Positions 7,003 through 55,461 of a DNA stretch of 64,000 nt are shown here, piece after piece. Made by a program: the position numbers and the translations under genes. The stretch comes from Rhizophagus irregularis (lineage: Eukaryota > Glomeromycota > Glomeromycetes > Glomerales > Glomeraceae), in contig NC_089453.1 of the NCBI RefSeq assembly GCF_026210795.1, forward strand, positions 64,501 to 128,500. Direction: 5' to 3'. The notes under the pieces are model-generated. The model saw only the letters and a program-made list of their open reading frames with translations. It did not search any database and was not told where the DNA came from. Numbering within the stretch: position 1 is the first letter of the stretch; each line of letters starts with the position of its first letter.

Positions 7003-8600
7003 ATGCACAAAGATTGGACAGACGAAATAAAATATAAAGATTTAGAGAAATTACAAGAGAAAGAATTAAAAGATTTAGTTAAAGAATATGAAGATATTTG
7101 TATATATGGAAATAAGAAAATAAGTAAAACAAATATAGTAAAATGCAATATAAGGATAAAAGATGAAATGCCAATAAATCAAAAAGCATATAGAGAATAT
7201 ATATGCTGCCCAAATTATTTTGGGATGCCATAATTACAATTTGGGATGTCATAATTCATTTGGTTTATATATAATTTACTATGTAAAGTTCTAAAATAAT
7301 TTGGGATGCCATAATTGAATTTGGGATTTTACTTATAATTACGGCAGTCCAAAATAATTTGGGTGGCATGTATAATAGAGAAAGTACAGAAAATAGAGAA
7401 ATAATAAAAAGAGAAATAGAAGAAATAATACAAGAATCATGTAGTCCATGGTCATCACCAGTAGTAATAGTAAATAAAAAGACAGGAGATAAAAGATTTT
7501 GTATAGATTTTAAAAAAATAAATCAAATGACGATAACAGACGCATATCGTTTGCCAAGAATAAATGACTTATTAGAAAAATTTAGAATAGCAAAATGGTT
7601 TACAACAATCGATTTAGCAAGTGGATATTGGCAAATAGAAATGAAGGAAGAAGATAAAGAAAAGACAGCATTTATTTGTAGTCAAGGATTATATGAATTT
7701 AATGTTATGCCGTTTGGATTAAAAAATGCACCGGCAATATTTCAAAGAACAATGAATAAAATATTTAAAGAATACTTAGATAAATTTATGAACGTATATA
7801 TAGATGATATTATAATATATTCGAAAAATTGGAATGAACATTTACAACATATAAAAATAGTATTAGAAGAATTAAGAAAAGCGAATATGATGTTAAAGTT
7901 AAAGAAATGTGAATGGGCGAAAAAGAATGTAGAATATTTGGGACATATAGTAAGAACAGATGGATTAAAACCAGATGATAAGAAAATAGAAAAGATTAAA
8001 AATTTAAAACCACCAAAGAATATCAAACAAATAAGAGAAATAAATGGATTATGTTCATATTATAGAAAATTTGTGAAAGGATATTCAAAAATAGTAAAAC
8101 CAATAATGGAATTAACGAGAAAGAATGTTCCTTTTGTGTGGACAGATAAACAACAAAAAGCATTAGAAGAATTAAAAGAAAAATTAATAAATTATCCGAT
8201 ATTACAACATCCAAATTTTGAAAAAGAATTTATATTAATAACAGATACATCAGGAGAAGGATTAGGAGCTATATTAGAACAATTAGATGAAAATAATAGA
8301 GAAATAGTTATTAGTTATGCGAGTAGAAGTTTAGTAAATGCAGAAAAGAGGTATCTGATAACAGAATTGGAATGTTTAGCAGTATTTTGGGGAATAAAAT
8401 ATTTTCATAAATATTTATTTGGAAGAAAATTTAAAGTAATAACAGATCATGCAGCATTAAAAGGATTTATAAGTACATCAAAAGTTCCTAAAGGAAGAAG
8501 AGGAAGATGGATGATGGAATTACAATAATATGATTTTGAAATAATACATAGACCAGGAAAAGAAAATAAAAACGCCGATGCAATGTCAAGGTTAATATGA
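7003..8600 (+). pseudogene. Ty3/Gypsy pol: reverse transcriptase and RNase H, broken
   Basis: The N-terminal RT lead-in (7003-7197, ending NQKAYRE) is cut by a 177-bp MITE and resumes at about 7383. The RT shows SPWSSPVVIV, CIDFKKIN, LASGYWQIEM, MPFGLKNAPAIFQ and the catalytic YIDD box near 7797-7812. RNase H follows with ITDTSGEGLGA, ELECLAVFWGI and TDHAALKGF. An in-frame TAA at 8526-8528 interrupts the domain just before its usual end; the same frame continues downstream with IIHRPGKENKNADAMSR and stops at 8600. The conserved catalytic residues show descent from an active element, but the MITE and the nonsense codon make this copy inactive. Confidence 0.93.
7198..7374. mobile_element. MITE-B copy inserted in RT, TSD ATAGAGAA
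   Basis: A 177-bp element with inverted ends TATATATGCTGCCC... and ...GGGTGGCATGTATA is flanked by the direct repeat ATAGAGAA (7190-7197 and 7375-7382). Internally it repeats AATTTGGGATG(C/T)CATAATT. A second copy, in the other orientation, lies at 25126-26751. The 8-bp duplication fits hAT-like mobilisation. It disrupts the RT reading frame. Confidence 0.92.
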
Positions 8601-8659
8601 GAAAGATAAAAAGTTAAAAATAATAAATAATAACGAATAACGAGATAAATAAAATTAAA

Positions 8660-10019
8660 AATGGTTGAAAGAATAGGATTAGAAATATATGTATTTATAA
8701 TTCATACAAATATAAATTATCATTGCATATTATTTGAAGATAAAGAAATAAAATTTATTTTACCATTTGAAAACGAAATAGAAAATTTATTAACAAATAG
8801 ATGAAAAAGAATATGATAAAATTTTAAAGAATATAGAAAAAGAAGAAAAATACGTACAAGAAAATGGAGTTTTATATAAAATTAAAGATGAAAATAAGTT
8901 TAGAGTAATAAGAAGATTTGAATTAGAAGGAATAATGTATATGATGCATGATCATGAATTATCAGCACATTTTGGGATTCAAGCTACATATGAAAAAGTA
9001 AAAGAAAAATATTGGTGGAAGAATATGAAACGAGATGTAGAAAAATACGTAAAAAGTTGTGATAATTGTCAAAGAAGAAATAATCCACAAGGGTTACATG
9101 AATTACATCCAATAGAAGTAAAAGAACCTTTTCATATGATTGGGATAGATGTGATAGGACCATTATCAAGAACAGAAGAAGGAAATAAATATATAGTAGT
9201 AGCAATAGATTTCTTTACGAAATGGCCAGAAGCAAAAGTAATAAAAGAAGCGAATGCAAAAGAAATATCAAAATTCATTTATGAAGAAATAATTTGTCGA
9301 CATGGATGTCCAAAGAAAATACTACAGATAATGGATCAGAATTTAATAATCAATTAACTAAAAATCTTACAGAAAAATTTAATGTTCAACATAAATTCTC
9401 AACTCCTTATCACCCTAAAACAAATGGATTAGTAGAACGATTTAATAAAACATTAATAGAATCATTGGCGAAATTAGTAAAAGAAAAATTAACGAGATAT
9501 AGAAATAGAGAATATGAAGATAAAAATTGGGATCAAAGAATAGCACCAATATTATTTGCATATAGGAGTAAAATACAAAAATCAAGTAAAATGACACCAT
9601 TTTATTTGACTTATGGAAGAAGAGTAATATTACTAAATGATGAAGAAATTAAAGGAATTACAATGATTAAAAGAATAGAACATATAATAGAAGAATTACC
9701 AATAAAAAGAAATGAAGCAAAGAAAAATATTGAAAAAGCACAAAAACAACAAAAGAAATATCATGATAAAATTGGAAAACGAAAACAAAACCTTCAAATA
9801 GGAGATAAAGTATTATACTTTGATGCAGCGAAATACAAAACACATACGGGAAAACTAGAAGAAAAATGGAAGGGACCATATTATATACATGAAATAATAA
9901 TAAATGGATCATACAAAATTAAAGAATTAAATGGAAGAATTTTAAGAAGACCAATAAATGGAGAATTATTAAAGGAATATTTTGATAGGGAAATATTTGA
10001 ACCATATATAATAATATAA
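8660..10019 (+). pseudogene. Ty3/Gypsy integrase with GPY/F module, frameshifted
   Basis: The zinc-binding HHCC module (HDHELSAHFG ... CDNCQ) lies at about 8940-9070. The catalytic core follows with GIDVIGP (first Asp), TDNGSEF (second Asp) and NGLVERFNKT (Glu), a complete D,D-35-E set. The first Asp is in the 8935-9357 frame. The second Asp and the Glu are in the 9294-10019 frame, so a one-base frameshift near 9320 separates them. The C-terminus carries the GPY/F motif (KWKGPYYIHEI), typical of Gypsy integrases. No chromodomain was seen. The region 8600-8934 is in poor condition, with several stops. Confidence 0.9.
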
Positions 10020-40828: not shown

Positions 40829-41999
40829 ATTGAAATACAAAACAGATCTGTAAAATACAAGCAGTAGTTTATGTAGTTTCAATTGATCCAGAAGTTTGTA
40901 CTCCATTCACATGGTATTCTTCAACAAAAGGTGCAGGTAAGATAGCTAAAAAAAAAATAAACTGGTATTTTCAACTTCAAAATGAAAGAAAAAGAAAGCA
41001 TTATATATTGAATGAAATTCATTGAAAAACAATCAAGTATGAATTTGATATAATAATTGTTATTCCCCCTTTTGAGATTTCTGAATTGAAATATACAAAT
41101 GCAAGAAATGCAGAATAAAAATAGATCAGGCTTTGCTTAAAGGAGCCATGATCTTGTTATAAGACATCCTCATGCAAGAAATAGTAACTTTTTTAGTAAT
41201 ACTTATCAGGTTTTTAACGTTTTCGCAACGTTTTTATTAAAAAACGTGCGAAAACTTTTTTTTTTTATGAAATTATTAATAAAAAACGTTTTCGAAAAAC
41301 GTTTTTTGTTAAAATTTAAATTTTGTTATCATATTTGATATCAAACAAATAAAATTATTAGGTGTTACAATCCAAAATTTCAAACATTATTAAAATTGTA
41401 TTTATTCCAATTTTATTTTATTGAGTTCACAATAAAAACCAATTTCCTGTGAAAATGTCAATCATGTTTTTGACTTCGGTATTTTCTATTGGAACAGGCG
41501 AACAGCAATTAATTAGGATGATCGAATTTTTTCCGTTGTCACATTTATGGAATAAATCAAAGAATCTAGATTCTTAGAATGGGTTGACCTCATTGTCCAT
41601 GTATGTTCAAAGATAAATGTTAAGATATTATTAAAAATGTCGAAATAAACGTTGTTAGGAAGTTTGACGAATACCTTTTTTTCTGAGAAACTAAATATAA
41701 GTTTGTTATTAAATTTAAGAGGTTAAAATCAAGTTTAATTTTCTTAATTCATGTCTCATTCTTCCTATAAATTTACTATGATTTTAGTGACGGGTTTACA
41801 GGTTCAATAGAGTTTACAGAATTACAGAATTTTACAGATATTTTATACTAAAAGTTTGACCATGTGATTTTCTTCTATATGACATATTAAGTTTGTAATA
41901 GAAATTTATCATCAAGAAAGATTAATTAATAATTTTTTTTTTTCTTAGCTTGTTTTAAAACGCTAACTTCACAAAAAATTTCTTTTCACAAATTCGAAA
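40829..41999. other. Boundary spacer between repeat-rich and gene-rich halves
   Basis: No intact gene. A short open stretch (about 40850-40940, ...SIDPEVCTPFTWYSSTKGAG) may be a gene or transposon relic. AACGTTTTCGCAACG-type palindromes at 41215-41310 resemble the hairpin satellite of element C. The last 600 bp is the presumed upstream region of MEI4. Confidence 0.45.
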
Positions 42000-43935
42000 A
42001 TGAAGCCTTACGATACTTCATATAATCGACTTAAGTTTGTTTTAGTAAGAAAAGAATGTTTTAAATTTATAATCGAATAAATAAACTGTATGTACTATAC
42101 AATTTTTATTTTCAAATTTAAGGCATTAATTATATTACGAAATAAACCTGTCGATTGGAAAATCGAAGGTATGTATTGTTGATTTTAAATCAACTCGATC
42201 AGTTTTTTTTATTAACTGTGGTAAAACTTAGATTACATCCAATTCATAAATCGCAATGATGTACAACAAAACAATTTAAACGAAATAACTCAAAATGTTA
42301 AGGAGAAAATTAGTAACGATAATAAGGAAAAACAAAATAATCAAGAAGTAAGCAACAGTAATAATGCTATTGTTGATGAGCATAATAATTCACAATTGAG
42401 ATGGCGGAAAAGAGCATTGGAATTGGCAAATAATGTCGATTCTTTGAAACAGCAACTATGTTTAGTTGAGCTAGGTAATACGGTAAACCAATATTAGTTA
42501 TTAATTTGTTTTTGAATAATATTTATTGATTTTTTTTATCTAGAACTTGAAAATGCAAAACAAAGTACTGTGACAAATAAAAGGAAGAAAACAAGGGTTC
42601 AACAGTCTAATTCTATATCCGGAACCGTTGAAGGAGATATTTTTTCAAAGAAACAATCGGAAAAAAGATCATCTGCAAAAAGAGAATTAAATAAATATCA
42701 GGATCCTGATGTTCAAATATTTCAAAAGCTTCCAGGAGCTGATGGTAATATCAATGAACTCTCGGTTTTCAAATTAACGTGCTAATATTTAAATTAATAT
42801 AAATTAGATACTTGGGGTCAATTTGATATTAATCAAGCAATGTCGTTTCTACAACAAATAAAGCTATTGATGTCAGTAGCAACTACAATGTCGGAAAAAT
42901 CAACTATTGAAATTCATTCGCCAAGTTTAGAATTATCATCTACGAACTCTAGAGTTATGATAGCACAAACTATCATAAAGATCGTGCATTATATGAGTAT
43001 AAAATTGACGAGTTTGTTAGAGATATTTCAAGCAAATGCACCAAAAAGCAGTAATCTAAAGCGGACTTATTCAACTTGTGTAAATAATTTTGGTACTGTC
43101 TTGGAAAAATTATTGGGTACTTAAAGTAATTAATTTTATTAAATGCTGTTTATGGATAACACATGTTGATAATAATCTTTAATTTGTGTAGTATTTCTTG
43201 AATCGCCATTACTTTCAGACTTTGAGAAAAATAATATCATTTCAACTATTGCAACATCTTTAACATTCTTGATTCAAGCTATCCACATATTAACTACAGT
43301 GGAAATCGAGGAACTAATGCGAGAAAGTAGTGAACTCGAAGATATTGATGAATCAGAGATATCTTCGGAAATTCAAGATCCAAGAGATGTAATAACATTC
43401 GTTTTAATTCACGTATGTAATGAAATTGAACCGAGACTTAAGGAAGCCGTTTGTTTTGTGGCAGCAAAAGAATGCCTTCAATTAATCATTAAAGAATTCA
43501 ACATGTATAAAGAATCAACAACCGATGATACATATTCTTTCATCAATACGATCATGTCCAATATTGGTTCAGGAAAACCCGTTTTTGAACCTGTAAGTAG
43601 TATTGTATGTAAGGACACCACATATTATTTGTTATGGATTCTTGAAGAAGTATTAATTAAAAATCAGGGATGTAAACCGGATAATGTGATTCTCTTGGGT
43701 AAGGATTTATATTAATGTTAATCGCTTTACTTTATTATTAAAAAATTAATTTTTTATTGCAGGAGAAACGATTAAGAACATAACTACATTATTAGAAGCA
43801 TCAATACTAAATAATAGACGAACTTCTTCACACGGAGATGCTTTTACAATGTATTTATATAATATTTGTGAAAAACTTTGTGTTCAATTAGGCTCTATCT
43901 CTTTAATTGACTTGCTTGAAAAACTATTTGAGTAA
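42000..43935 (+). CDS. MEI4: MEI4 homologue, meiotic double-strand-break formation protein
   Basis: Seven exons join in phase: 42000-42044, 42123-42168, 42232-42474, 42544-42744, 42808-43116, 43192-43698 and 43763-43935, giving 507 residues. The N-terminus (YNRLKFVLALIILRNKPVDW, then RWRKRALELANNVDSLKQQL) matches the conserved MEI4/Rec24 start: a hydrophobic helix with I-R-x-KP followed by a W-R coiled coil. The C-terminal half is helical, with YYLLWILEEVL aligning to the conserved F-WxLE-L block of the family. MEI4 works with REC114 to activate SPO11 cleavage on meiotic chromosome axes. At 507 residues it is longer than animal MEI4 (about 390), through a charged Asn/Lys-rich insert. Splice sites are all GT-AG, and introns are 64-78 nt. 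The identification rests on remembered family pattern. Confidence 0.75.
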
Positions 43936-47981: not shown

Positions 47982-50900
47982 ATGTCTCTAGGACAAAAGT
48001 CAATATTTCATATTCTAACTTCCGAAGCTGGTTTAAAGTTGAAAAGTAATGGAGAAGGGCCACACGAACTGGGTAGGATATGTTGAACGCGTGAATACGC
48101 AAAGTATTTTACACAGCGATTTTTCATACCAATGACGCGTCTTTCAAAGATTATGTCAAGACGGAAAAATCAAAAATTTTTATTAATTGATTTTTTGAGA
48201 CCGAATTCAAACTGATTAATCTTTTGTTCAACACTTTTAAACTTTAAATAGGGATAGAACCTTCAACTTTTCGACGCGAACTTTGTCAAAAGTTAATGTC
48301 GCATCCGCAGTATCCCGATCCTATTATTGATCAATTTTTAGAAGCATTACAAGAATTATTGGACGAGGATCCAGCACAGTTTATGACGTGTTTAAAACCT
48401 CTTTTGGTGAACGGAGAATCAAGATTGTAATTAATAAAAAAAACTTCGTTGATTTTCTTAATCTTAATTTATTATTGACCATAAAAATCTTTATCAATTA
48501 GCGGTACAGATAGTTTGATTAGAATTCTATTGGGTATCGATGTTATCCAATCAAAACTATTTGACCAATTATTAGAGAGATTACCGACATTCATTTCAGA
48601 GTCGGATAATGATAGCGTTGAATCACCAATTCCACGATTGATATTACAACAATTGAAATGGCTAGAGTATACAGTTGACCCTCTTCGTTTAACAGAAAAA
48701 ATCTTGGAGGTAAAGACATTATAAATATGATAATTGTATTTGATGATCTATTATTAAACTAGATTTTGATTATTATATCCAAATTATCCTAAAGATGATA
48801 CCCATCACTCCTTTAGACATCCAAAGAGAAATTATAATAAATTTACCTGAAATTATTAACGATTCAGAACAGATGGTAATGAATGTATTTAAGAATACAA
48901 TAATATAGAATGATTACCCATAATATAATATCCTTTTCTTTAAATACTTTTAGACGGTTATTAAGGCTCTTATAGATTTAATGGACCAAAGCCATCGATT
49001 AATAGTCCCCATTCTTGATGCACTCTCTAATTTTATAATACAAGAAGATTATATGTGTAAAATTCGCGAAACAGTCTTTGATCAGCTTGAATCAGCAGAT
49101 TTGGAAGATTTACCACTTATTATCAAGTTCTTGCTTCAGACGGCTACACTTGAAGATGCTTTTATAGTATGTTTCATTGATAATTTTATTTTGACAAATT
49201 TTATGTGGTTGAAGTCTTAATAAATTATCTTGTAGATTATTAAACAAATTAGGGAAAGAGTCGATTTTCGTTCAATAGGAAAATTACAAAACGAAGCAAA
49301 CCAATCGAAATGTAATCAAAAGAAGAAAAAGGAACAAGTTCCTGAATCTTTGATTCTTGATTCAATTAAAAACGGAATTCAATTTCATAAGTTCATTATG
49401 GACGCTTGGATTAAAGCAATCAATGATATCAAAGTGACGGTACAAGTTTTGGCTCATATAATTTTTTAAAAAGATTTTAAATCTTAAAAAAATTGACTTG
49501 CTTTTTTTTTTATTTTTAGACAAAACACATGATCATTGACGTTTTGGTTTTGTTGATTATGCATTCAATCCCGGGTGCAAAGAAAAAAGTTGAAAATATA
49601 TTCCGTAAAAAGATTGAAAGTGGCCTTTTTACAAGGGAGCTTTTAGAAGAAGCCATTACGTGTCACTATGAAGGTTTGCAAGAATATTTTAATAATATTA
49701 TTTCACTTTCGGAAAGCCTTCTTCGATCAAGTCAACAGCAAGCAACATTAGCACGGGCTGCTTGTTCATTATATAAAAGTTCTTTCATGGTATTCGAAAC
49801 TTATGAACAACAAGAAATTATAGCCTCGTTAGTAACACATATTGGGAGTGGTTCAAATACTGAGGCAGATTCTGCACTATCAGTACTTTCACATCTCGTT
49901 GAAACTGATCTCGTAAAAATATGCCGATTCACAATTTTTGTGAAAGGGATCTTGGATTATTTGGATAACCTATTAATAGATCAAATTAGAATATTATTTG
50001 ATGTGTTAAGTAAACTAATATGTGAGGTAAATTTACTAACTTCTTAATGTTTAAAGAAGTTATTTGATCAACGAGTTTTAATTAAAATTGAAATTATTGA
50101 AGGACGCTAACTACGGGGATGGTAGAAGTGGCTTACTTTCTGAGTTTTCAATTGTTATTCAAAAACAATTGTCGAATCCTAGTGAAAAATACAAACAGAT
50201 CGGTGTCATTGGAGCTTTAGCTTTGGTGAAAACTTTGGGCGCCAAAGAATTAAGTTCAAATGATGTTGACCCAAATTCTGGTAAGTTGCAAATTTTTTAT
50301 TAATATTTAATCAAATTACTAAAATACTTTCTATTAGGTTTAAAGGACTCAGAGAAACGTAATCCATTCTTAGATATAGTAAAAGAAACTCTTACTAAAA
50401 TTGAGCGACATTGTGTGAGATCAATGGTAGAGTAAACATAATTTAATCGTTTTTACGTATTCACTATTTTATCTTGAAATTTATTCTCTACTTTTTAAAG
50501 GCTTGTCTTTCTTTTGCGTTTGACGAGCTCGCCTATTTCATTTCTCATGATCTTTTAGATGAGGATCTCGTCATTTGGATCAATGATAAATTAGCTTCTC
50601 CATTTCAAGATTACTTTATCTTAGATGAAGATGACATATCAGTCTATAATAAGGAGGCTTATCATTTACCACGGATACCAATCGAACCCTGGATGAAGAT
50701 AGATGTAAAAAAATAAATCACTCAACTCGTTTTGTTATTTTATTAGTCCTTATTTTATTCTCACGATTTATTACATTTGAACATAAATAGGGTGAATTAT
50801 TAAATATTATATACCCTTTATTATGTGAGCCTTATGTATCCGCAGACGTACGCACAAGTCTTGGTGTAAAACGTGATTGGATAATGAGCTCTTGTTCAAT

Positions 50901-53668
50901 GTTTAAATTATGGCAAGCGTGTGAAAAGGCCAAAAATAAAGGATCATTAGAAGAGATCGATGCCTTGTTGGGCATGGGGATACTCATGTACGAAAAACAA
51001 ACAGCAGAAGTAAGGGTTTTTTTTTTTGTATTTTCTTCAAGTTTATCTTTTTTTTTCTTTTTTTTTTGTTGATTATTATATTTCCTAGCATATGAAAAGT
51101 AACAACTATACAAAATTAATGTACGAAACTGCATGTAACGCATTATTTTATGCTATTAACTGGTAGGCTATATTGTTCATTTCACTTCTTTTTCTAAGAT
51201 TAAAGACTCGGATTAAGATATTTCATAACGGTTTATGAAAATAAATTGAATTTTTTTTTTTATATATTCACTAAAATAATTAGGTTCCGAGAGATTGTCA
51301 ACGCATTTTGGAGTCAATCGGATATTGATGATACAACATGTAGTAAGTTTTATTCTCTTTATTTACCGATTTTATTTACCTACCTTATTAATAAGAAGTA
51401 AATTTGTTCGATTTGTTAGAAAAAATAATAACAAGATTACAGAATATAAATGAATTAGAGAACCTTTTGACCGAGTTATTAAAAATAACTCCAACCTTTC
51501 AGCCCTTTGGATTTGGAGTACCTACACAAAAATCAGTTACAAAAGTCAGGGCTATTGCCATACCAATTGATACTTCACAAAGAAATATTATTAGAGCAGG
51601 CAAGACAGCAAGAAGATCGGCTATTAGTAAAGGAAAGATCATAAGTGCTCGTAGAATTGAAGAACAAGAAGAGGAACAAAGCAAAATTAATGATTCTGTT
51701 CCGCAGTTTATGTGCGCTGCGGATTTAAGACCTTTAATGCGCGAACTTGAAATGGAAACATTTGGTATCTTAAAGTATGGAGAATTCAAAAAGTCTCAAG
51801 TTGATTATGACGATAACGATGATGGATCTAAAGATAAAGAAGTTTGTGATGATGAAATTCGTTTAAAACCTAAAGAAATCATTTATCTTCTTGAAGACCT
51901 TAATCGAAAGCTTGAACACAAAATATCACCATCATCTATGAATATACCTTTTTTCGCTAAGAAGTTTAAAAAGAACGAAATCAATACAAAATCTAAAGGA
52001 TTTGACTTAATTTCGCGACAGTCCGCATTGGAGATTGTTAGTACAGTCTCCGAAAAGTATTTGCCACTTCTATTAACTCAATTTGAGTCAATTTGTAACT
52101 TGCTCGATCCGGACAATGATGTCTTGTTAGAAAGAAATGAGTTAAATGAAACCCAAAAGTGTCTTGAGTTATTACTTGAAATAATTCATCGACTGGTTTC
52201 ATGGTCTGATTTGAAGAGTCCGGATAATGTACAGACATTAATCAACATTTTGAACCAAATTTCTTCAAGAGATGATTCTTTAACCGAATCCACGACTACT
52301 TCAATTCAACGTGATTGTCTTCAAAAATCTATCACGGATGTATTTGAATATTTACTTAAATTTTCATCAAAACTTCCAACTGCAAATTTGGCTATTTTAT
52401 TTCATAAGATACTTTGTAAAGTTAATGAACTCGCACCTGATCCAAATGAATTATCCGTTAAATTCGGAGATATTGCACGATATTTTGCAACTTATCAATG
52501 GCAGGATCGAAAACAATTGAAGCCTTCCTCAATTGTATATCTTATACAACAAGATATTCATTATTCGATAGATAAAATAGAAAGAATCAAATACTATGCT
52601 GATTTAGTCCTTCCCTCTCTTGAAAATAATGAAGAAAAAGTATTACAAGAAAATCCATTATTTAATAAGGATACGTTTCAACACTTCTACAAGGCCTTAT
52701 CTATAGAGTTAATTGAAACTTTACGGGAATTTAAGATGAATGGGACTACAGAAGAAATCCTAACGCAATTTACCAGCATGGTTTATTGTTGGCAAAGATT
52801 GGTTTCTTTTATAAAGAAAAATCATAAGCGTGTTATACTCTCCGTGGTGTTGAGATATGGTCGTGGTTTTATTGATTTGTTTGTCAAAAAAATGTTGCCA
52901 TTCATAGATGAGAGTTTCAAGTTACATCGAGATGTAACATTGATAATTTTTAAAGATTTTCAGAACGCAACTCGGAATATTCAGACGCTTTGCACTCATG
53001 TGAAGGTAGCTAAAGATACTATGTTGGCTGCAATGGTCCCAGCTGTAAAAAAGTCTTTGGAGATAGTAATCTTCCAAGTTAAGGCTATGTTACAACATAA
53101 TGGATATCCTCCAGAAGCATTTTTCATGGGAGCTCTCAAATGTCGCGATATTGAAGGAAATATAGTTGATCCTAATATGCCTATAGACGAGGATACAAGA
53201 GATGAAGTAAATTCAGTTCTGAATGATGATGATGACGACGACGGTGATGATGAAGACATAGAGAAAATTGAAGAAGAAAAGCAAGATGAAAATGAGGAAG
53301 ATGATGATAATGAGATTGCATCAGAGACTTCAAGATCTGCCGATAAAATTCGTGAACGGAAAGGTAAAAAGAAAACTAATACCCCGCAATTTGAAGAAAT
53401 GGAAGATGGCTCATCTGAGAAGAATGACGGCCATATAACTGAAGACGAAGAAGTAGACGATGCATCAGTTGCAAAGACTGATTCGATAAATTCTGATGTA
53501 GAACAGGATATAATTGAACTCTTAGATGAATATATTGAAGAGAAAGAATTAGAGAGTTATAATAGAAAGCGTAGCGAGTGTTCTGCAGATGATGATGAAA
53601 ATGAGTCAGCGGCAGCATCCTCTTCCAAATCAACGCATAAACGATTAAGAATGGAGTCAAATAAATAG
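47982..53668 (+). CDS. FANCD2: FANCD2, Fanconi anaemia ID-complex subunit
   Basis: Fourteen exons join in phase to 1523 residues: 47982-48072, 48252-48426, 48502-48709, 48795-48875, 48954-49166, 49236-49439, 49520-50026, 50103-50280, 50338-50426, 50501-50704, 50791-51009, 51089-51162, 51284-51342, 51399-53668. FANCD2 hallmarks are SLIRILLGIDVIQ, PRLILQQLKWLE, LPLIIKFLLQTAT, NWFREIVNAFW, LPFIDESFKLHRD and KKSLEIVIFQVKAML with EAFFMGALKCRDIEG. IFVKGILDYLDN contains the lysine (codon 49943-49945, residue 466 here) equivalent to the ubiquitin-acceptor lysine of human FANCD2. The C-terminus is a long acidic Asp/Glu tail ending in a basic KRLRMESNK. With FANCI it forms the clamp that marks inter-strand crosslinks for repair. 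Human FANCD2 is 1451 residues. The start MSLGQKSIFHILTS is the first Met of the conserved N-terminal segment. Confidence 0.93.
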
Positions 53669-54063: not shown

Positions 54064-55461
54064 ATGACGTTCTTGAGATCTAAAATTATAGTTTTTATAT
54101 TCGTTGCTACAATATTCTTTCTTATATTTTGGCCAACAAATCCAACAAATTATTATTCAAAACAATCATGTGTTGGACAAAATAGTAATTCGCCAATCGA
54201 AAATAATGGACCAGGACCAGTTATTGATGCAATTAGAACAACAACTATAACGGATTTAAAAGGAGAGCAGAAAGAATATTTAAATGCAAAGGGATATATT
54301 ACATATCTTCATACACTTCGTAAACAACATAAAACAGCAATAGCATCATTAACACGTAACGCAGATAGAGCAGTAGCAAATAATACAGTATATTCAGTAA
54401 CATTAAAACCACAATTACCACCGTCAGGAGATCCGCATGATTATATGTCGTTGGGAAGATATTTTTGGCCTGATCCAACTAAACCTGATGGATTGCCATA
54501 TATTCGTAAAGATGGTTATGTTAATCCCGAGTTTTTTACTGTTCTAGACTATGTTTTTATGAGACAAATGTTTAGAGAAGTCCAAGATTTAGGATTCGCA
54601 TATTTTTTTACTAGAAATGAAACTTATGTTCAAAAGGCTACGTATCGTATTAGAGAATGGTTCTTAGATGAAAAAACTAAGATGAACCCAAATTTAAACT
54701 ATGCTGGATTTAGAAAAGGGGAAGTCATAGGATGGAAAACTGGCGTTTTGGATTTTCATCAAATATTTAGAATGTTACAAGCAATACCGCTTATGAGATA
54801 TTCGAATCAATGGGATCCTAGCATTGAAGTAGGATTAAAGGCATGGTTATCGGAATATTATGTGTGGTTTACTACATCTAAAATGGGTAGAGGAGAAGGG
54901 AAAGCAAAGAATAATCATGGTACATTTTATGATGTACAAGCATTATTTTTATTAGATTATCTTGGTAGATATGATGAAGCAAAAGCTTTTGCTAAACAAT
55001 CTATAGAAAATCGGATAAATAAAGGTATATTACCAACAGGACAACAACCACATGAAACCGAAAGGCCGACATCATGGTTTTATTCAATATTTAACTTGCA
55101 AGGTTTATTTATGTTAGCTGAAAGAGCTGATCATTTTGAAATCGATGCTTGGAATTATGTCGGACCTGAAGGTCAAAGTATACGTAAAGCTGTTGACTAT
55201 TTATTACCTTATGCTTTAAATGATGGTAAAGGTTGGCCTGTACCCAATATTAAAGGTTTTGAAATGAATGATTATGTTAAAATTTTAGAATTATCTTATA
55301 TTATTTGGGGGGACGAAAAATATTTAAATTCTGTCGAAGAATTAAGACCAAAAGCTAAAGCTGAACAAGCTGCTGGTCTTAAATTGGCTAAATGGGAAGA
55401 TAATTATCTTTGTAACATAGCTTTATTGACTAATCGCTTACTTTGGACTTGTTTATATTAA
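54064..55461 (+). CDS. Alginate-lyase-like polysaccharide lyase, membrane-anchored
   Basis: A single exon of 465 residues. A short basic start (MTFLRSK) and hydrophobic segment at residues 8-23 form a signal anchor, so the enzyme should face the ER/Golgi lumen or cell exterior. The body is an (alpha/alpha) toroid-type lyase: DPHDYMSLGRYFWPDPTKPD (residues 123-142), DGYVNP, GWKTGVLDFHQIFRM, and the catalytic-type NNHGTFYD at 283-290 (His285, Tyr289), as in the alginate lyase superfamily fold (PF05426-like). Fungal members occur in soil and wood fungi and act on uronic-acid or related polysaccharides by beta-elimination. The actual substrate here is unknown. There are no introns, unlike its neighbours. 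Confidence 0.85.
   Translation: MTFLRSKIIVFIFVATIFFLIFWPTNPTNYYSKQSCVGQNSNSPIENNGPGPVIDAIRTTTITDLKGEQKEYLNAKGYITYLHTLRKQHKTAIASLTRNADRAVANNTVYSVTLKPQLPPSGDPHDYMSLGRYFWPDPTKPDGLPYIRKDGYVNPEFFTVLDYVFMRQMFREVQDLGFAYFFTRNETYVQKATYRIREWFLDEKTKMNPNLNYAGFRKGEVIGWKTGVLDFHQIFRMLQAIPLMRYSNQWDPSIEVGLKAWLSEYYVWFTTSKMGRGEGKAKNNHGTFYDVQALFLLDYLGRYDEAKAFAKQSIENRINKGILPTGQQPHETERPTSWFYSIFNLQGLFMLAERADHFEIDAWNYVGPEGQSIRKAVDYLLPYALNDGKGWPVPNIKGFEMNDYVKILELSYIIWGDEKYLNSVEELRPKAKAEQAAGLKLAKWEDNYLCNIALLTNRLLWTCLY

Follow-up and report, generated by a model that had tools for sequence, protein, structure and literature searches.

Sex in the arbuscular mycorrhizal fungi is a long-standing question, and in Rhizophagus irregularis it has not been formally observed. 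A reading of the sequence alone had placed an intact seven-exon gene at positions 42000-43935 of the window analyzed here (the whole stretch of 64,000 nucleotides from contig NC_089453.1), had taken its product for a homologue of MEI4, which belongs to the set of factors promoting double-strand break formation itself, and had drawn from it support for cryptic meiosis, should the organism be an arbuscular mycorrhizal fungus. The locus raises the question of whether this gene is coding, whether its product is MEI4, and what such a gene would mean for the fungus.

The gene is present as described, exact to the base (Table 1). Seven exons and six introns on the forward strand (introns of 63-78 bp, all GT..AG, with the splice sites picked by reading the sequence) yield a coding sequence of 1524 nt, with all junctions in phase and a single terminal stop, for a protein of 507 residues. 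In every one of the seven exons, the two alternative frames carry internal stops whereas the model frame carries none (exon 7 bearing the terminal stop only), and the model frame also has the best codon log-likelihood throughout under a codon table trained on four open reading frames (ORFs) of the window with Pfam matches. The spliced ORF is far beyond chance: across the 2.5 kb between positions 41700 and 44200, with introns required to begin with GTA, to finish with AG and to measure 55-89 nt, the longest spliced ORF reached 1575 nt, against a maximum of 522 nt in 100 dinucleotide-preserving shuffles. All five matches at E <= 1 between the candidate protein and the six-frame translation of the genome fall at its own locus, and hence no second copy was detected.

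Table 1. The candidate gene and its exons, in positions of the window.
Feature	Position	Strand	Evidence
Candidate gene (probable MEI4), seven exons, 507 residues	42000..43935	+	Splicing, coding tests, remote similarity to MEI4
Exon 1: start codon, residues 1-15	42000..42044	+	Spliced model
Exon 2: encodes residues 12-36 together with the adjoining parts of exons 1 and 3	42123..42168	+	Spliced model
Exon 3: Asn/Lys-rich insert followed by residues 82-111, W88 among them	42232..42474	+	Spliced model, alignment with mouse
Exon 4: polar and Lys-rich linker	42544..42744	+	Spliced model
Exon 5: block FLQQIKLL, mouse counterpart FLQHLLAL	42808..43116	+	Chained-block alignment
Exon 6: residues 423-436 (43614-43655), the best C-terminal block, against mouse 311-324	43192..43698	+	Alignment
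Exon 7: stop codon; FTMYLYNI opposite mouse FTFYLWRL	43763..43935	+	Alignment

The open frame and the codon scores show past constraint and not present use, which leaves some room for a relic, a gene silenced so recently that its reading frame is still open. With 1524 nt open over seven exons and the model frame best in all seven, such a relic would be very unlikely, and it is plausible that the candidate is under selection.

The identity of the product is a more difficult matter. The match to a MEI4 profile, sought with PF13971 (Mei4), was not obtained, as this family is not reported for the whole 507-residue protein or for three pieces of it in Pfam searches at E <= 10. Against the six-frame translation of the genome, the same profile gave a single weak match of 12.5 bits (E 3.69) away from the candidate locus. 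This failure is not decisive, because mouse and yeast MEI4 are reported to be only about 8% identical (PMC3966222) and because the filters of HMMER drop most weak matches. The families that Pfam did return, namely DUF2514 for the whole protein (E 1.2) and vRNAP_dom (E 0.14), Nucleocapsid-N (E 5.2), DUF6860 (E 0.079) and DNA_pol_E_B (E 0.055, the best) for the pieces, lie far under their cut-offs and were taken as chance. Two chains of Sex comb on midleg, found with the candidate among the sequences of the PDB at E 0.23-0.25 over 22 residues, were likewise dismissed. Collections of bacterial/archaeal and of viral contigs gave 24 and 3 pattern matches to the candidate, respectively, with none confirmed as a relative. 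Exon 6 alone, modeled by AlphaFold from the single sequence, was returned as helices with no strands, at low confidence (mean pLDDT 42.2).

Because members of the MEI4 family diverge strongly, a direct test of similarity was chosen. The comparison sequence was a reconstructed mouse MEI4 text of 389 residues, which we take to be a fair stand-in, since PF13971 recognizes it with 389.8 bits; the test leans on this one reconstructed MEI4 sequence. As a query against the sequences of the PDB, the reconstructed text returned no matches, and its 54-residue N-terminal piece returned two chains of syntaxin, at E 2.3 and E 4, and no MEI4 chain. Against the candidate, phmmer with its filters off gave 11.8 bits over three collinear domains, in which mouse residues 9-36, 42-69 and 285-371 pair with candidate residues 10-36 (with one gap), 83-110 and 396-485, respectively. 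This score exceeds that of all 5000 full shuffles by a narrow margin of 1 bit (best shuffle 10.8 bits, 3278 of the 5001 sequences being reported). BLASTP found a C-terminal piece at E 1.35e-4 and an N-terminal piece at E 0.003. When ranked together with 663 open frames (40 residues or longer) drawn from the window and the extracted loci, the candidate came first of 664 (E 0.0028). An unrelated frame took second place (E 1.5), and the frames of the candidate's own exons 6 and 3 came after it, each seen in the window as well as in two loci that duplicate that stretch.

The order of the similar segments was set against a stricter control. The best collinear chain of ungapped blocks between the candidate and the reconstructed mouse protein reaches a score of 185; 600 shuffles of the candidate within 15-residue windows, which keep local composition, average 96.6 (SD 13.7, maximum 146), and 600 shuffles of the mouse protein made in the same manner reach at most 140. 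Chance probably accounts for two of the eight chained blocks, scoring 22 and 24 points, one lying in the linker and the other a terminal one of five residues. The candidate surpassed all 150 shuffles and all 15 ORFs of the window in likeness to mouse MEI4 at every one of four settings, the stricter ones among them, and with 100 composition-matched shuffles each, its z score was 6.7, and 6.9 at the stricter setting. As controls, two unrelated proteins of the window gave z scores against the candidate of only -0.1 to 0.6, that of an alginate-lyase ORF being 0.6 and 0.0. The other, a FancD2 ORF, reached a permissive chain score of 165 with the candidate, not far below the 185 of MEI4, but this carries no signal because its own shuffles average 156.6 (z 0.5, and -0.1 at the stricter setting).

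These comparisons bear upon the alternative that the protein is a lineage-specific orphan, whose helical and Lys/Asn-rich composition merely imitates MEI4. Such an orphan would fit a protein with no Pfam family above cut-off, and the best of the 5000 full shuffles falls short of the candidate by no more than a bit or so (10.8 against 11.8 bits). However, none of the 600 local-composition shuffles of the candidate, nor any of the 600 of the mouse protein, attains the collinear score, and the two unrelated proteins of the window remain at z scores of -0.1 to 0.6, making imitation by composition quite improbable. The gene is very probably the R. irregularis homologue of MEI4, an assignment made on collinear remote similarity to the reconstructed mouse protein in place of a match to a curated profile. 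In this respect the identification offered by the sequence-only reading holds by alignment and finds no counterpart in PF13971.

The matched segments may coincide with the expected landmarks of the family. Residues 12-36 of the candidate align gap-free to residues 12-36 of the reconstructed mouse protein, sharing LAL.I.R.KP.D, and are taken as SSM1, the putative REC114-binding region. Residues 82-111 lie opposite residues 41-70 of that protein and are taken as a predicted SSM2-like coiled coil. R21 and W88 of the candidate stand opposite R21 and W47 of the mouse text, and the tryptophan pair is taken to open the second motif. The position of SSM1 has been described for yeast Mei4, in which a basic residue (R29) ends the first helix and a near-invariant Trp (W34) opens SSM2 (PMC10393192); candidate residues R21 and W88 may be the counterparts of this pair. 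Kumar et al. 2010 (via PMC10393192 and PMC3966222) defined membership of the MEI4 family by collinear signature sequence motifs near both ends of the protein. Motifs in this arrangement are found in the candidate, as judged by the blocks shared with reconstructed mouse MEI4 (z 6.7-6.9).

Compared with mammalian MEI4 (PF13971), the candidate presents the N-terminal, coiled-coil and C-terminal blocks in the same order, but is longer (507 residues against 389 in the reconstructed mouse text), contains a Lys-rich linker as well as an Asn/Lys-rich insert that separates the first block from the second, and lies below detection by the profile. Other members can be likened to it by description. Mei4 of Saccharomyces cerevisiae and Rec24 of Schizosaccharomyces pombe would share the expected family function, and the yeast protein features the N-terminal helix pair (PMC10393192). 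The plant proteins PRD2/MPS1 are counted as MEI4 homologues, with six SSMs described in rice PRD2 (PMC9880466).

A plausible mechanism may be drawn from these relatives. For the yeast proteins, helix 1 of Mei4 is described as entering a Rec114 dimer made of two C-termini, giving trimers that bind DNA and form condensates with it (PMC10393192), while in mouse the N-terminal domain of MEI4 and the C-terminal domain of REC114 are reported to form a stable complex (PMC6288613). By analogy with the family, the N-terminal helices of the candidate would insert into a REC114 dimer, the Rec114-Mei4 trimers would bind and cluster DNA, and the assemblies would assist SPO11 in generating the double-strand breaks from which meiotic recombination begins. 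An encounter between two nuclear types is one setting in which such breaks might form in R. irregularis.

The sequence-only reading had also proposed that SPO11 and REC114 be sought in the same genome; of these, SPO11 was found, as a partial model, and REC114 was not. A Toprim match on contig C3 (22.5 bits, or 27.6 bits with its neighbors) led to a SPO11 gene near position 2,241,714, for which eleven exons placed by eye in one frame give a partial model of 285 residues. The model bears both a TP6A_N domain (PF04406, 74.2 bits) and a Toprim domain (PF21180, 118.1 bits), together with the sequence RDIYYKD, which we take to be the catalytic-Tyr motif, and it also matches the sequences of solved Spo11 and Topo VI-A structures. 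One of its introns, at locus coordinates 798-861, displays the donor ATATCCTTT, a branch-like CCTTAAT and the acceptor AC. Splicing at these sites, the sole splice examined there, keeps the frame and yields LIDRIETNAEFVLVIEKE, which aligns to Topo VI-A, and the intron seems to belong to the minor (U12-type) AT-AC class. Rhizophagus irregularis is reported to be rich in minor introns, with 205 predicted (PMC10639083); SPO11 is not named in the available text of that study.

Further meiotic genes were recovered in the genome, including MND1 (62 bits) and a gene of the HOP2/TBPIP type (45.2 bits), the searches for each also giving matches in four of the 14 control genomes, none of them above cut-off. 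A second TBPIP/HOP2-like match at C10:1176660-1176764 (24.4 bits, above cut-off) contains one in-frame TGA and may represent a paralogue, an intron or a relic. A weak HORMA-domain match (25.2 bits), not specific to HOP1, has 11 stops within its span. Two Pfam models of REC114 found nothing in the genome and were likewise silent in the control genomes. A reconstructed mammalian REC114 region, presumably a faithful query given its 208 bits to solved REC114 chains, returned one match only (E 0.167), rejected as REC114 since it lies in a 437-residue frame that reads, by sight, as GTPase-like. A profile of IHO1 also found nothing in the genome or in the control genomes. The negatives for REC114 and IHO1 say little, because the control genomes were silent as well and because PF13971 missed the candidate gene itself.

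These partners also bear on the alternative that the gene is MEI4 by descent and has lost its meiotic role, being kept or co-opted for the spindle, for mitotic repair or for a parasexual cycle. In Arabidopsis, a part in spindle assembly is also reported for the homologue PRD2/MPS1, and the REC114 partner was not detected in the genome searches. The same source describes rice PRD2 as having no spindle role (PMC9880466), so that this function is not general, and the genome that encodes the candidate also encodes a two-domain SPO11, MND1 and a HOP2-type protein. A purely non-meiotic MEI4 is accordingly considered unlikely, if less remote than either an orphan or a relic.

The reading of the gene as MEI4 adds one break-promoting part to the known meiosis toolkit and alone does not show meiosis. 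To our knowledge, MEI4 has little use outside meiosis except for the spindle role in Arabidopsis, and since it also promotes the breaks, the presence of an intact MEI4 weighs slightly against a passive leftover. The core meiosis genes RAD21/REC8, MND1, DMC1, SPO11, HOP2, MSH4 and MSH5 have already been listed for R. irregularis SL1 (PMC6281316), and MEI4 is absent from those named in the available text of that source. For Gigaspora rosea, four meiosis-specific genes have been reported, with REC8, SPO11 and MSH5 not found in the assembly (PMC4771724). The case for cryptic meiosis, to which the gene had been said to lend support, thus gains modestly, as seven core genes were listed before it (PMC6281316), and meiosis itself is not demonstrated by the addition. 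A literature search joining Mei4 with Rhizophagus, or with arbuscular mycorrhizal and meiosis, found no paper, the original inventory by Halary et al. (2011) lying outside that search. It is tentatively proposed, at a little under an even chance, that R. irregularis keeps a working MEI4-SPO11 break module that serves a meiosis yet to be discovered, one taking place, for example, while a single mycelium houses two nuclear types. Were this true, foci of MEI4 or SPO11, or SPO11-linked DNA, could reveal where and when an 'ancient asexual' has sex, and the MEI4 gene offers a concrete marker for expression and localization work.

The remainder of the window contains several other features. A FANCD2 gene spans approximately 48000-53668, with its start judged by eye and with ORFs at 49529-50047 and 51404-53668 matching Pfam FancD2; it shares the strand of the MEI4 gene and lies roughly 4 kb downstream of it. 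A single open frame at 54064-55461 encodes a protein of the alginate-lyase family (PF05426, 241 bits) with a hydrophobic N-terminus, and retrotransposon-like frames bearing reverse transcriptase/RNase H and integrase occupy positions 7359-10019.
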